Assembly: GCA_026196495.1 (NCBI GenBank)
Contig: JAPHSY010000032.1
Span: 1-64,000, forward strand
Source: Magnetovibrio sp.
GTDB taxonomy: Bacteria > Pseudomonadota > Alphaproteobacteria > Rhodospirillales > Magnetovibrionaceae
Length of the DNA stretch: 64,000 bases
Reading direction: 5' to 3'
The position numbers and the translations under genes are program-made. The notes beneath the pieces are model-generated. The model saw nothing but the letters and a program-made list of their open reading frames with translations. It did not search any database and was not told where the DNA came from. Positions 13,495 through 18,384 of the stretch are shown in pieces (position 1 is the first letter of the stretch; every line of letters begins with the position of its first letter).

Positions 13495-13578
13495 AGCAAT
13501 GGCCCTCAGCCCTTCCAAGGGAGCTGAGATTGACTTACCATGTTCAAAACATAATGAATTTTGAGGGGCACTTTCTTC

Positions 13579-14055
13579 ATGGACTTAATTGAGTTTCTGT
13601 TTCCCGTCGCCAGTACTGTTCACACCTTAGCTGCCGTGATTTGGGTTGGCGGCATGTTCTTCGCACACATGGCATTGCGCCTCGCGTTGATGGAACAAGA
13701 ACCACCCACCCGACTTGGTGTTTGGCGCAGTGTCTTTCCCCGTTTCTTTGCCTGGGTTTGGGTAAGCGTTATTATCTTGCCTGTAACGGGGTATGCCATG
13801 GTGTTTGTCGACTTTGGTGGATTTGAAGCCGCAGGTCATCATGTCACTGTGATGCATTACATCGGTTGGGTGATGATCTTCTTGTATATATTTTTATACT
13901 TCCAGCCCTATGCAAAATTCCGTGCTGAAATGAGCGCCGGAAACTTGCCCGCCGCTGCAGGACACCAAGCGGTTATTCGGCGCATTGTCACCACCAATCT
14001 GATCTTAGGTATGATTGTCATCAGTGCCGGCGTCTCAGGACGGTTTTGGGGCTAA
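13579..14055 (+). CDS. CopD-like four-helix integral membrane protein, 158 aa
   Basis: Inner-membrane protein with four hydrophobic helices. The first carries VHTLAAVIWVGGMFFAHMALR, the arrangement (helix-borne His next to W-x-GG) seen in the CopD / DUF4149-type family. Histidines in the loop (GHHVTVMHYIGW) could bind metal or heme. The start is the ATG at 13579; the frame opens at a TTG six codons earlier. Function in copper uptake is a family-level guess. The next gene starts 20 nt after its stop, so the two are likely co-transcribed. Confidence 0.7.
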   Translation: MDLIEFLFPVASTVHTLAAVIWVGGMFFAHMALRLALMEQEPPTRLGVWRSVFPRFFAWVWVSVIILPVTGYAMVFVDFGGFEAAGHHVTVMHYIGWVMIFLYIFLYFQPYAKFRAEMSAGNLPAAAGHQAVIRRIVTTNLILGMIVISAGVSGRFWG

Positions 14056-14075: not shown

Positions 14076-15161
14076 GTGTTAAACATACGATCAGTTTTGG
14101 TATCCATGCTGGCTGCGTTCATCTTCATTTCTGCCCCAGGCCCCGGCCATGCCAAAACAAGAGACCGTGTGAAGCGCGACTTTCGTCATGCAGACACCAA
14201 CAAGGATAACCAACTCAGTCGCAAAGAATGGATGCGCCGTGGTAATTTTGACATGCTTGATCAAAACGGCGACGGTTTTCTGAGCCTGAAAGAGGTCCGC
14301 GCAATCTACAAAGGTCATGATGACAAAGACTATGATTGGCCACCCACAAACACAGTGCTCAAATCCCCACGCATTGGCAATATTGATCCAGGTGCCTTAA
14401 CGGACAAAGTTAGTCGTGACACTTTGGATAAAGAAACTCTGTGTGGCATTGGCCGTTCATCACATTGCTCCATTGAACCTCAGCGCAAACGTGGTTTAAT
14501 TGAAACCGGAACGGGACCTCGTTTCCCAGAAGGTACCAAGTGTTCTGGCATGGATGATTACTGGGCTATGAACTATAGCTCCAAACGCAATAGGGACAGT
14601 TACCACGGGGGCATTGATCTGCCAGTACCGTGGGGCAAACCAATGTTGGCGGTTGCATCAGGTTCCGTTGTGGCCCTGTATAAAGCGCATTTGTCGAAAC
14701 GCGGCAATGAAGTTGTGATCCGGCACAGCCCTGAACAAACGGGTTTACCCATTTGGACTTACAGTGCCTATGGGCACTTGGACAAGCTTCCAAATTTTGA
14801 AATTGGTCAACGCATCAATAAAGGGGACATCATTGGTCCCACTGGAAATTCTGGAATCAGTGCTAAGGGCAAAAAAGGTTCGGCTCAATCCACCACCCGG
14901 CGACCAGCTATTCACCTAGCCATGTTTTACAGCAAAAACAGAACCTACGCAGAAGCCAATAATACCATCATTCCCGTAGATGGCCGCTGGCTCGACCCGT
15001 TTGCATTTTACCGTCAAAAAGAACCGTTCATGTCCGATGCCGTTAAGGCCCTCCCCGATGCTGAAAAGGACGTGGATATTCCTATCATGTTTGACGATGG
15101 AACAACAATCCCAGCAGACACAAAAATTATCTGGCCTTATACCTGCACAAAAACCAACTGA
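14076..15161 (+). CDS. Exported EF-hand plus M23-peptidase-like protein, 361 aa (GTG start)
   Basis: A secreted calcium-binding, LytM-like protein. The signal peptide covers about residues 1-26 (hydrophobic core, then PGPGHA before KTRD). Two complete EF-hand loops follow: DTNKDNQLSRKE at 40-51 and DQNGDGFLSLKE at 62-73. The rest resembles an M23 metallopeptidase: YHGGIDLPVPWGKPMLAVASG contains the H-x3-D zinc pair, and YGHL follows. The final HxH motif reads HLA, so the second histidine (a zinc ligand) is missing. That suggests a scaffold or regulator rather than an active endopeptidase. The GTG at 14076 has AGGAG eight nt upstream. Confidence 0.8.
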   Translation: MLNIRSVLVSMLAAFIFISAPGPGHAKTRDRVKRDFRHADTNKDNQLSRKEWMRRGNFDMLDQNGDGFLSLKEVRAIYKGHDDKDYDWPPTNTVLKSPRIGNIDPGALTDKVSRDTLDKETLCGIGRSSHCSIEPQRKRGLIETGTGPRFPEGTKCSGMDDYWAMNYSSKRNRDSYHGGIDLPVPWGKPMLAVASGSVVALYKAHLSKRGNEVVIRHSPEQTGLPIWTYSAYGHLDKLPNFEIGQRINKGDIIGPTGNSGISAKGKKGSAQSTTRRPAIHLAMFYSKNRTYAEANNTIIPVDGRWLDPFAFYRQKEPFMSDAVKALPDAEKDVDIPIMFDDGTTIPADTKIIWPYTCTKTN

Positions 15162-15164
15162 TGG

Positions 15165-16397
15165 TTATTTGCCCTCATGTGTCACAATATTGACCTCACT
15201 ATGAAGAGTTTTGTGCACCGGACATTTATCTGCAATCTCTAGCAACTTAGCCCGCACATCATCATCAAGGTCTCCCTCAATGATGACCTCGCGTTGGATT
15301 ACATCGACCTTTCCATTTTGCGTTTCACACTCTTGGCAATCTTCGCCGTGAACCTTTTCGTGATTGAGGCGTACCGTTACACGTTCCAACGGTATCTTTT
15401 TGTGATCCGCATACATCCGCATCGTCATAGACGTGCAAGCGCCCAAACCAGCAAGCAAAAGATCGTAAGGTGACGGGCCGGAATCCAGACCACCGTAGCT
15501 CTTGGGTTCGTCAGCTTTCAAATAATGACGTCCACCGACCATCACATGCTGCTGAAATTTTCCATTACCTGTCTCCCACACAACGACTTCGCCGGGGCCA
15601 CCTGGGAGATCAAATCCATCATCGACTTTGGGGGCTTCAATATAACTTTCTGCCCAAGCGGCAATCACACTCGAAACATAAACGGCATCATCTGCATTGT
15701 GCATTAAATGATCTGCATCATCTAAGGAAACAAAGCTCTTTGGATGTTTTGCAGCAACAAAGATTTGTTCCGCATTTTCAATGCCAACAATTTCATCTCG
15801 CGGTGCATGAAAAATCAACAATGCCCGGCCCAGACGTGAAATAGCATCCTTCATATTATGCGCGGCTATATCATCAAGAAACTGTTGCTTGATCGTAAAG
15901 GGACGCCCACCAACACTCACTTCTGCGGCACCCTTTTCGTGTATCAAACTGACGGCTTCCGCGAAATTACCCGTAACATGATCTGGATCATAAGGTGCAC
16001 CGATGGTCGCGATAGCTTTACATTCACCAATGTGATGTGCAGCAGCCAACACTGCGGCACCACCTAAGGAATGACCAATCAAAATTTGTGGAGCCTGATG
16101 GTTTTCACGCAACCAATCAGCAGCAGCAACCAAATCATTAATGTTTGAGCTGAAGTTGGTGTTGGCGAACTCACCTTCTGAGCTGCCCAAGCCGGTAAAA
16201 TCAAACCTCAACACTGCAATGCCATGACGCGTCAAACCACCAGCCAAACGACTAACAGCCTTCAAATCCTTAGTGCAGGTAAAACAGTGCGCAAACAAGG
16301 CAAAGGCACGTACTGGCGTATCGGGTATATCCAAACGCGCAGCCAGTTTTTCACCTGCCCCACCGATGAAGGAAATCTTCTCTGTCGTAAAAGCCAA
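15165..16397 (-). CDS. Bifunctional alpha/beta hydrolase-OsmC family protein, 410 aa (TTG start)
   Basis: A fusion known in proteobacteria. Residues 1-250 are an alpha/beta hydrolase with oxyanion-side HCFTCTKD, nucleophile elbow GHSLGG (S110), acid D201 (HAPRDEIV) and H230 (DADHLMH). Residues 265-410 are an OsmC/Ohr-type peroxiredoxin-like domain with the two redox cysteines C321 (GACTSMT) and C392 (DKCPVH). It probably acts on peroxides or thioesters in the cytoplasm; the true substrate is unknown. The start is TTG at 16397, supported by GGAGG 5 nt upstream. It is convergent with the EF-hand gene, 3 nt apart. Confidence 0.93.
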   Translation of the reverse strand: MAFTTEKISFIGGAGEKLAARLDIPDTPVRAFALFAHCFTCTKDLKAVSRLAGGLTRHGIAVLRFDFTGLGSSEGEFANTNFSSNINDLVAAADWLRENHQAPQILIGHSLGGAAVLAAAHHIGECKAIATIGAPYDPDHVTGNFAEAVSLIHEKGAAEVSVGGRPFTIKQQFLDDIAAHNMKDAISRLGRALLIFHAPRDEIVGIENAEQIFVAAKHPKSFVSLDDADHLMHNADDAVYVSSVIAAWAESYIEAPKVDDGFDLPGGPGEVVVWETGNGKFQQHVMVGGRHYLKADEPKSYGGLDSGPSPYDLLLAGLGACTSMTMRMYADHKKIPLERVTVRLNHEKVHGEDCQECETQNGKVDVIQREVIIEGDLDDDVRAKLLEIADKCPVHKTLHSEVNIVTHEGK

Positions 16398-16520: not shown

Positions 16521-17159
16521 ATGACTGAAACCCTATCGTGCGACGACGTCGAAGAAATTGAAACCATCCGAGACCATGATGGGTATTTTAAAGTAGACCG
16601 CTATCATTTACGTCACCGTAAACACGAAGGCGGTTGGACTGATGTCATGAGCCGGGAAATTTTTGAACGCGGTCATGCCGTCGCCGTATTGTTGTTTGAC
16701 CCTATCTTAGACAAACTGGTGTTCATCGAGCAGTTCCGCCCGGGTGCTTACGCCGCGCTCAAGTCCCCATGGTTTGACCCAAACGAAACCACCCCGTGGT
16801 TGTATGAAATTGTTGCTGGCATCATTGATGAAGGTGAAACCCCCGAAGACGTCGCCAAACGCGAATGCTTAGAAGAAGCCAATTGCCCTGTGCACGATCT
16901 ACGCCCAATCATGCACTATTTGGTGAGCCCAGGCGGCAGCACAGAAAGTACTTTCTTGTTCTGCGGCCGTGTGGACGCATCAAACATTGGTGGCGTTCAC
17001 GGATTGGATCACGAAGGCGAAGACATCCGTGTATTTACACTGGACGCAGAAACGACCCTGAACTGGTTGGATCAGGGTCGTTTTAGCAACAGCATGACAT
17101 TAATTGCCGTGCAGTGGTTCAAGATCAATCATCAGAATCTTCGTGAAGATTGGTGCTAG
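16521..17159 (+). CDS. nudF: Nudix hydrolase, ADP-ribose pyrophosphatase type, 212 aa
   Basis: Hydrolyses ADP-ribose and similar nucleoside diphosphate sugars in the cytoplasm. The N-terminal part (YFKVDRYHLRHRKHEGGW ... RGHAVAVLLFDP) and VFIEQFRPGAY are typical of the NudF/TrgB branch. The Nudix box is at about 102-124 (GIIDEGE-x7-RECLEEAN); the usual glycine after EEx is asparagine, a change also tolerated in this branch. The last 35 nt overlap tail to tail with the RTX-repeat gene on the opposite strand. Confidence 0.9.
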   Translation: MTETLSCDDVEEIETIRDHDGYFKVDRYHLRHRKHEGGWTDVMSREIFERGHAVAVLLFDPILDKLVFIEQFRPGAYAALKSPWFDPNETTPWLYEIVAGIIDEGETPEDVAKRECLEEANCPVHDLRPIMHYLVSPGGSTESTFLFCGRVDASNIGGVHGLDHEGEDIRVFTLDAETTLNWLDQGRFSNSMTLIAVQWFKINHQNLREDWC

Positions 17160-18384
17160 ACGATTGGTGTTCGTCATGATCTTTGTTATTCCTTTTTGAC
17201 TTCTGTGCTTCTTGTGCTTGCACATCGTCCGCAGCGGTTTCAGTTGTTGATGCCTCAACGGCCACCGCATCCGGGTCACCGCCGGCATAAGCAATCATTG
17301 TCGATGCATCAAGCATACGCCCATCATTGTATTGCAGAGACGGAACACCAGACGTGGCGTAATCTTTGATGGTGATGGAACCATCCATGTCAGCAAAAGA
17401 CAAAACCAGATCATTATCGCTCAGGCTAAACGAAGTCTTGTCGCTGGTGATACCTTCACCCAGCCTGATCACACTCGCTTCATCGGCACCGCGTATGGTG
17501 TCATGTCCATCTCCTACATAGTATTCAAAATTCGCAACCGCATCGTTGATGAGTTCAAACTCATCATTACCGACACCACCCGTTAGCGAAGATTGAATAT
17601 GTGGATTGTGGCCACCAAACAACGAAGCCACACCACGATCATCGGTGCCATCTAGAAGCACATGATCATCACCCGTACCACCATTGATGTTGAGATGCGT
17701 ACCTGATGCTTCGATGGTGTCATTTCCGGCACCACCCCAAAGCATGGAATTGATGTTCAATGCCCCAGACGAATAAAGCGTGTCATCCCCTGTGCCGCCA
17801 AACATTTGTACAGAACCGCCATGATGGTTTATGACATCATCGCCTTCACCACCATGTGCCCGACCACCCATCAACGAAATGGTGTCATCACCTGCGTCAC
17901 CACGCACATAACTAAGGCCTTGGGCGTTGATGGTATCATTGCCTTCTCCTCCGTACGCACGTGAGGCCACAACTGGCATCAGTACTCCACAAAGCGGAAT
18001 TGCATGATTATGGCAATGACCGCCCATGCCTTCATTCGTAAAATGAGCAGAACCGTAAACATGAACCAGCGGAGCAAAAAGAATTCCCGCCCCTTCAACA
18101 TTGATAACATCATCGCCAGAACCACCTTCGACTTTAATGTTCCAGCCTGAAGCATTTATGCTGTCATCACCGGCCCCACCATGAATATAGGTATGAGAGG
18201 CCTCTGAATTAATCAAATCGTCTCCGTCTCCACCATCTATGTCAGAAATCTGTCCCGTGTAGCGAAATTGGTGCAAACAGTCACGAAATAGGTCTGTCGC
18301 ACATCTATGACCGTCAGATTGTTTGTGTTGGGTATTTTCGTAAGTCCCTGGCGTATTATTTGTATCCACTGCCGAAGTCATCAT
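17125..18384 (-). CDS. RTX-type calcium-binding repeat protein with cysteines, 419 aa
   Basis: Probable secreted or surface beta-roll protein. I count about ten GGxGxDxI/V-type nonapeptide repeats between residues 49 and 285, which bind Ca2+ in the family. A RTX-associated C-terminal segment (NDLVLSFADMDGSITIKDYAT) follows. A roughly 45-residue insert near 110-155 lacks repeats and contains HCHNH plus two cysteines; two more cysteines lie in the N-terminal part, which is unusual for RTX proteins. The tail is rich in D, E, S and H, not the usual hydrophobic type I secretion end. No secretion genes are adjacent. AAGGA precedes the ATG at 18384. Confidence 0.82.
   Translation of the reverse strand: MMTSAVDTNNTPGTYENTQHKQSDGHRCATDLFRDCLHQFRYTGQISDIDGGDGDDLINSEASHTYIHGGAGDDSINASGWNIKVEGGSGDDVINVEGAGILFAPLVHVYGSAHFTNEGMGGHCHNHAIPLCGVLMPVVASRAYGGEGNDTINAQGLSYVRGDAGDDTISLMGGRAHGGEGDDVINHHGGSVQMFGGTGDDTLYSSGALNINSMLWGGAGNDTIEASGTHLNINGGTGDDHVLLDGTDDRGVASLFGGHNPHIQSSLTGGVGNDEFELINDAVANFEYYVGDGHDTIRGADEASVIRLGEGITSDKTSFSLSDNDLVLSFADMDGSITIKDYATSGVPSLQYNDGRMLDASTMIAYAGGDPDAVAVEASTTETAADDVQAQEAQKSKRNNKDHDEHQSSSTNLHEDSDD

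Follow-up and report, generated by a model that had tools for sequence, protein, structure and literature searches.

In LytM, zinc is held by His210, Asp214 and His293. The water molecule is activated by His260 and His291, and alanine at either of these two positions is reported to give an inactive protein (PMC4594094). The first histidine of the HxH motif is, according to a review, not a zinc ligand (PMC9662197). LytM H291A is described elsewhere as having no activity (PMC11534333, PMC3046168); it is said still to bind peptidoglycan, but less than the wild type, and in the catalytic fragment of LytM peptidoglycan binding is abolished by H210A, D214A or metal chelators (PMC3413552). Pgp3 H247A has been solved alone, with zinc and two waters nearby, and also with a pentapeptide and with a cross-linked tetra-tri peptide (PMC6978369), and EnpA H109A has been called inactive (PMC8269130). 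The characterised degenerate LytM domains that we found in print work as protein-protein switches and are without zinc ligands or metal.

The window analysed here is a stretch of 64,000 nucleotides from Magnetovibrio sp. (assembly GCA_026196495.1, contig JAPHSY010000032.1, positions 1 to 64,000), and it contains a real open reading frame for a protein that joins EF-hands to an M23 domain (Table 1). This EF-hand/M23 protein is probably periplasmic. On balance, and by a modest margin of confidence, we favour the hypothesis that it is a zinc-loaded, non-cutting binder of peptidoglycan peptides, from an M23 subfamily in which the water-activating histidine was lost one time.

Table 1. Coordinates, within the window, of the EF-hand/M23 gene, its sequence features and the gene upstream.
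Feature	Position	Strand	Details and basis
CopD-like membrane protein gene	13561..14055	+	PF05425, E 5.5e-9; ends 20 bases upstream of the EF-hand/M23 gene
EF-hand/M23 protein gene	14076..15161	+	GTG start, 361 aa; AGGAG 5' of start; Pfam
Putative signal peptide, residues 1-26, cut after ...GHA	14076..14153	+	By inspection; pLDDT 57-63 at residues 1-30
EF-hand loop 1, residues 40-51, DTNKDNQLSRKE	14193..14228	+	Asn at loop position 6, where Gly is usual
EF-hand loop 2, residues 62-73, DQNGDGFLSLKE	14259..14294	+	Canonical
M23/LytM fold, ~residues 156-314	14541..15017	+	Pfam (176-263) and structure comparison
HxxxD as H177-GGI-D181, putative zinc ligands H177 and D181	14604..14618	+	Alignment; 46/46 Ala/Gly and 26/26 His members
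H234 (in YGHL), counterpart of LytM catalytic His260	14775..14777	+	72/72 members
N258	14847..14849	+	Asn in 46/46 Ala/Gly members
R276	14901..14903	+	Arg in 46/46 Ala/Gly members, 0/26 HxH members
A278, where HxH has its first His (LytM His291, water-activating)	14907..14909	+	Alignments
H280, second His of HxH, putative third zinc ligand (LytM His293), kept	14913..14915	+	Alignments
C-terminal tail, family-specific, conserved, ends WPYTC + 4 residues	15018..15158	+	Alignment

An initial annotation had described an M23-like domain that keeps H-x3-D and YGHL, and this is confirmed, with H177-GGI-D181 and H234 in place and a Peptidase_M23 match (PF01551, residues 176-263) of 46.3 bits against a cut-off of 28.7. 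EF-hand_1 (34.7 bits against 25.4) and EF-hand_5 (35.9 against 25.9) each match two stretches above their Pfam cut-offs, matches to EF-hand_7, SPARC and EF-hand_8 all fall under theirs, and NCBIfam gives no match above cut-off. An AlphaFold2 model built from a 53-sequence alignment (mean pLDDT 92.1, pTM 0.89; averages of 94, 97 and 89 over residues 171-180, 231-240 and 271-280) predicts a LytM-like M23 fold, with an rmsd of 2.3 across 122 residues to LytM 2b13_A. Its best matches in the PDB are DipM (7qrl_C, Z 11.3), LytM (2b13_A, Z 10.6) and EnvC (4bh5_A, Z 10.4) and, as these mix active enzymes with degenerate regulators, the fold cannot tell an enzyme from a regulator.

It had been suggested that the domain perhaps regulates amidases; if it were an activator of the EnvC, NlpD or DipM kind, its groove would bind an amidase and not peptidoglycan. 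Degenerate LytM domains are indeed known as amidase activators (PMC8416486), DipM comes first among the fold matches, level with active enzymes, and the source genome has an Amidase_3 domain, split between the ends of two contigs and probably from one gene. However, the known activators are described as having none of the zinc-ligand residues (PMC8416486), all three of which are kept here, and the EF-hand/M23 protein has neither LysM (Pfam at E<=0.1 returns EF-hand-type and M23 models only) nor a helix long enough for an EnvC-type coiled coil, the longest in the model outside the signal peptide being of 9 residues. The source genome also appears to possess separate genes of these kinds: it has seven M23 matches above cut-off and, by our reading of the sequences, the other six are MepM-like, NlpD/DipM-like and degenerate, LmdC-like, EnvC-like and two with full motifs (L025 and L028). 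The suggestion therefore gained no support, and we consider an amidase activator improbable. Within the same genome, the EnvC-like gene adjoins an open reading frame whose sequence resembles that of a CtpA-type protease. L028 (G000, contig 25) stands apart as an M23 protein that has a full motif and a long C-terminal region.

The nature of the active site depends on which histidine of HxH is missing, as the identity of the lost residue decides whether a metal ligand goes with it, and such a loss therefore needs to be read in an alignment. The motif of the EF-hand/M23 protein runs R275-R276-P277-A278-I279-H280-L281-A282, and the initial annotation took this as HLH changed to HLA, with loss of a zinc-ligand histidine. 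Aligned at this motif, near relatives have RRPAIHLAMFYS or RRDALHFAILYS, and HxH relatives have, for example, YPHLHMTVYAS, G-Y-P-H-L-H-M or G-F-S-H-L-H-L. Both in an alignment with 19 homologues and in a wider set, H280 falls on the second histidine of HxH, a column that is His in 72/72 family members, and the lost residue is the first histidine, now Ala278. The same register is found when a 71-member profile is aligned with the solved chains of Campylobacter jejuni Pgp3 (pHLHFG in the wild type, pALHFG in H247A and rpalHla in the profile). We therefore reject the loss of a zinc ligand, the motif having been read two residues out of register. A metal-free scaffold of the kind first proposed would draw on the string HLA that follows the histidine when it is read without an alignment, but with 26 HxH relatives and Pgp3 all placing the kept histidine at the ligand position it is hardly tenable. 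As judged by alignment, the zinc ligands H177, D181 and H280 and the catalytic H234 appear to be present, with only the counterpart of His291 replaced. The description of a catalytically dead M23 scaffold is thus plausible, but for a different cause, namely loss of the water-activating histidine next to a complete zinc triad. In the model, DSSP assigns a strand at 278-286 that holds both A278 and H280, so the two side chains should face the same side.

Seventy-two family members, the EF-hand/M23 protein included, could be read across the motifs, and at position 278 they have Ala in 45, Gly in 1 and His in 26. The loss of the first histidine is shared by a clade of 46 of the 72, the EF-hand/M23 protein among them, with invariant ligand columns, and so goes beyond chance; a look for the same replacement in homologues was the check proposed in the initial annotation. 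Six rows were dropped as short or having broken frames (L074, L078, L087, L099, L101 and L106), while L075 was retained in the counts despite a stop that cuts its tail. Three of these six depart at ligands (L101 with Glu181 and Arg280, L106 with Gln and Asn at 177 and 181, and L099 with Asn177), each being truncated or frame-broken. L101, L087, L078 and L099 are broken or split family copies in draft genomes and may reflect misassembly or gene decay. A second alignment, A2, has 71 members (L082 is absent from A2 only), all 71 of which match Peptidase_M23 at E<=0.001. The motif RHSPEDTGLPxWxY, at A2 residues 216-229, is common to most Ala and His members and serves as a mark of the subfamily.

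A maximum-likelihood tree computed without the motif columns places a single Ala/His change on a branch with support 99/94, and one change is recovered in 99% of bootstrap trees; a quicker tree gives this branch a support of 94. When two very divergent HxH members were added, support for the split was 83/63 and one change was found in 80% of bootstrap trees. In the quick tree, L013 and L090, which read R-D-P-H-L-H and R-E-P-H-L-H, are the HxH rows that lie closest to the Ala clade. L047, from the same genome as L013 (G019), is likewise HxH-type; in all three PHLH follows R-D or R-E, and in that tree they are sister to the Ala clade. L013/L047 and L090 may be intermediates between the two states, although the placement of L013 and L090 beside the Ala clade is lost in the tree with long branches. 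Ala-type and HxH-type members occur together in five genomes (G019, G034, G036, G042 and G054); the source genome of the EF-hand/M23 protein has one family match.

Within the 46 Ala/Gly members, H177, D181, H234, H280, Y232, N258 and R276 are invariant. The codons at six of these places have themselves changed, with at least 11 silent changes at 177, 14 at 181, 12 at 234, 13 at 280, 11 at 232 and 20 at 276 in the Ala clade, against no residue change at any of the six positions across the 46 sequences. The zinc-site residues are therefore under purifying selection in the Ala clade. The 26 HxH members vary at two of the seven positions, having Tyr (15), Phe (5), His (4), Glu (1) or Asp (1) at 276 and Lys (12), Arg (4), Asn (3) or others (7) at 258. 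It had also been considered that a histidine might be supplied from another loop. At the level of sequence, the Ala clade has just one further invariant histidine, H217. As 22/26 HxH members share it, H217 is no new replacement for the one lost, and a compensating new histidine is accordingly rejected.

These associations were followed in a later sample, in which 289 class-level and 199 order-level genomes were searched (the source genome being in both) and the family was found (E<=1e-20) in 10 of the former and 53 of the latter. The 54 loci read comprise 22 repeats of known sequences and 32 new ones, some of which are near relatives of each other or of known sequences. Eighteen of the 32 are Ala-type, 17 by automatic alignment and one by eye (L170, which was automatically misaligned but reads GNSG and PRRPAIHF and is therefore Ala-type), and 14 are HxH-type. 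H177, D181, H234, H280, N258 and R276 are present in all 18, and Arg is found at 276 in 0/14 of the new HxH-type sequences. Co-conservation suggests that C357 and C156 may form a disulphide; one of the 17 automatically aligned sequences, L154, has no Cys at 156. As a control we took a further 40 M23 domains from the order, out of 44 lower-ranked search places with four omitted (two EF-hand-only matches, one tail-only and one at a contig end). HxxxD with HxH is found in 35/40; the other 5/40, NlpD/DipM-like, have QxH and an Asn in place of the ligand Asp. In none of the 40 does HxxxD occur together with a substitution of the first histidine, AxH included. The 35 include L107 and L108, distant HxH members of the same subfamily, of which L108 has Asn at 234, and L109 and L116 were scored as HxH (HLHWGM) from the printed sequence and not from the profile alignment. 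Strongly degenerate EnvC-like domains are under-sampled in this control, because the domains were found through their similarity to the EF-hand/M23 protein.

With the zinc ligands kept and the water-activating histidine lost, the Ala-type protein probably binds cell-wall peptides but does not cleave them. A natural clade stands in a mutant-like state with its zinc-site residues under selection, and binding without cutting would be the simplest reading. We propose that an unnamed M23 subfamily would have lost its water-activating histidine once while retaining the full zinc site, and that a zinc-loaded groove would most likely grip peptidoglycan stem peptides or cross-links and hardly hydrolyse them, as a natural counterpart of engineered M23 'substrate-trap' mutants. 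Zinc occupancy, peptide binding and the loss of catalysis are what we infer, with the engineered mutants as the analogy. Arg276 and Asn258 would probably reshape the emptied portion of the groove so that it binds ligand. The change to alanine is not neutral for binding, given the reduced peptidoglycan binding reported for LytM H291A.

Against this, H234 and the zinc triad are strictly conserved, as would also be seen in an active enzyme, and the newly invariant R276 and N258 could support an altered catalysis. The protein might thus be a still-active, rewired zinc hydrolase, in which H234 alone activates water and Arg276 stabilises the transition state, perhaps aided by Arg171 or Asn258 and possibly acting on a different substrate. 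The invariance of the zinc ligands, H234, Y232, Arg276 and Asn258 in 46/46 members fits such an enzyme. In EnpA an Arg is proposed to take the oxyanion role of LytM Tyr204 (PMC9662197), and Arg171, present in 42/46 Ala/Gly and 24/26 HxH members, is a candidate counterpart. However, alanine at the first histidine is reported to kill activity in LytM, lysostaphin, LasA, Ale-1 and EnpA, and we regard a rewired hydrolase, the main rival reading, as less likely than the binder. A broader and still tentative proposal, which spans binding and catalysis, is that, in a site that arose once and is maintained by selection, the His291 counterpart was traded for the invariant Arg/Asn pair around an intact zinc, giving either a calcium-tunable zinc receptor of peptidoglycan peptides or a hydrolase with a new mode of water activation, in a family whose HxH paralogues co-occur with it in some genomes.

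For the preferred non-cutting binder, the EF-hand pair would be an added stabilising or sensing module, found in some members, the EF-hand/M23 protein among them. The description of two perfect EF-hand loops holds for the second and fails for the first at loop position 6 (Table 1). EF-hand matches are found in 19/71 A2 members by Pfam, and a search of whole open frames for the EF loop pattern finds it in 18 Ala/Gly-type members and one HxH-type member (L013), a count that excludes false matches inside the M23 domain (L017 and L093) and the dropped row L087. The loops are absent in 27/45 Ala/Gly-type members of A2, which makes calcium unlikely as a core function across the sequences compared. 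The protein had been called calcium-responsive; its own loops are good, but most Ala/Gly-type members are without them, and for the EF-hand/M23 protein itself a role for calcium is something that we infer from those loops.

The co-directional CopD-like gene noted earlier is borne out by its PF05425 match (Table 1), and it is probably co-transcribed with the EF-hand/M23 gene. All four genus genomes with the EF-hand/M23 gene show this adjacency (4/4); beyond the genus a CopD-like match (E 9.6e-10) was found only at L064, where it is non-adjacent, several of the loci being short. A CopD partnership as a general link is rejected, adjacency being restricted to the genus among the loci examined, and no cluster of neighbouring open reading frames spans more than 8 loci. 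In two of the six genus genomes (G001, 67% complete, and G002, 100%) the family was not found at E<=1e-20. Magnetovibrio blakemorei MV-1, of the same genus, carries an orthologue, L050 (NZ_MCGG01000017.1), with which the same-genus orthologue in G004 agrees across the last 150 residues compared. Downstream, 15165-16397 (-) is a single open reading frame with an alpha/beta hydrolase and an OsmC domain (Pfam), and 17125-18384 (-) encodes an RTX calcium-binding nonapeptide repeat protein, a relative of which occupies the corresponding position in M. blakemorei MV-1.

Our literature search returned, among the matches listed, no conserved clade with first-histidine loss, no Arg/Asn association and no EF-hand fusion. 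The loss of the first histidine with the ligands kept is not unheard of, as the Helicobacter pylori orthologue of C. jejuni Pgp6 is described in print as GxH, a natural loss in which HxxxD and the second histidine are kept (PMC12454360). By that published description, the orthologue is from one species and is called degenerate, whereas the clade described here comprises 46 sequences, almost all of them Ala-type, in which Arg276 and Asn258 are invariant. Engineered Pgp3 H247A, LytM H291A and EnpA H109A are altered at the same residue position as A278 and are reported as inactive, but they are laboratory mutants of active enzymes outside the EF-hand/M23 subfamily. Clostridioides difficile SpoIIQ likewise has a LytM domain, and its zinc binding is reported to affect the interaction with its partner, although it differs in being a sporulation protein with intact motifs (PMC4982068). 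The degenerate LytM domains of EnvC, NlpD/DipM, Csd2 and PrgK are likewise M23 folds whose active site is incomplete; these, however, are described as being without zinc-ligand residues or metal, whereas the EF-hand/M23 subfamily keeps all three ligands. In the Ala clade one water-activating histidine has been given up while the zinc site is held by selection, so that evolution may have separated 'bind' from 'cut', and the clade would offer a natural test of the role of zinc in an M23 fold without catalysis.
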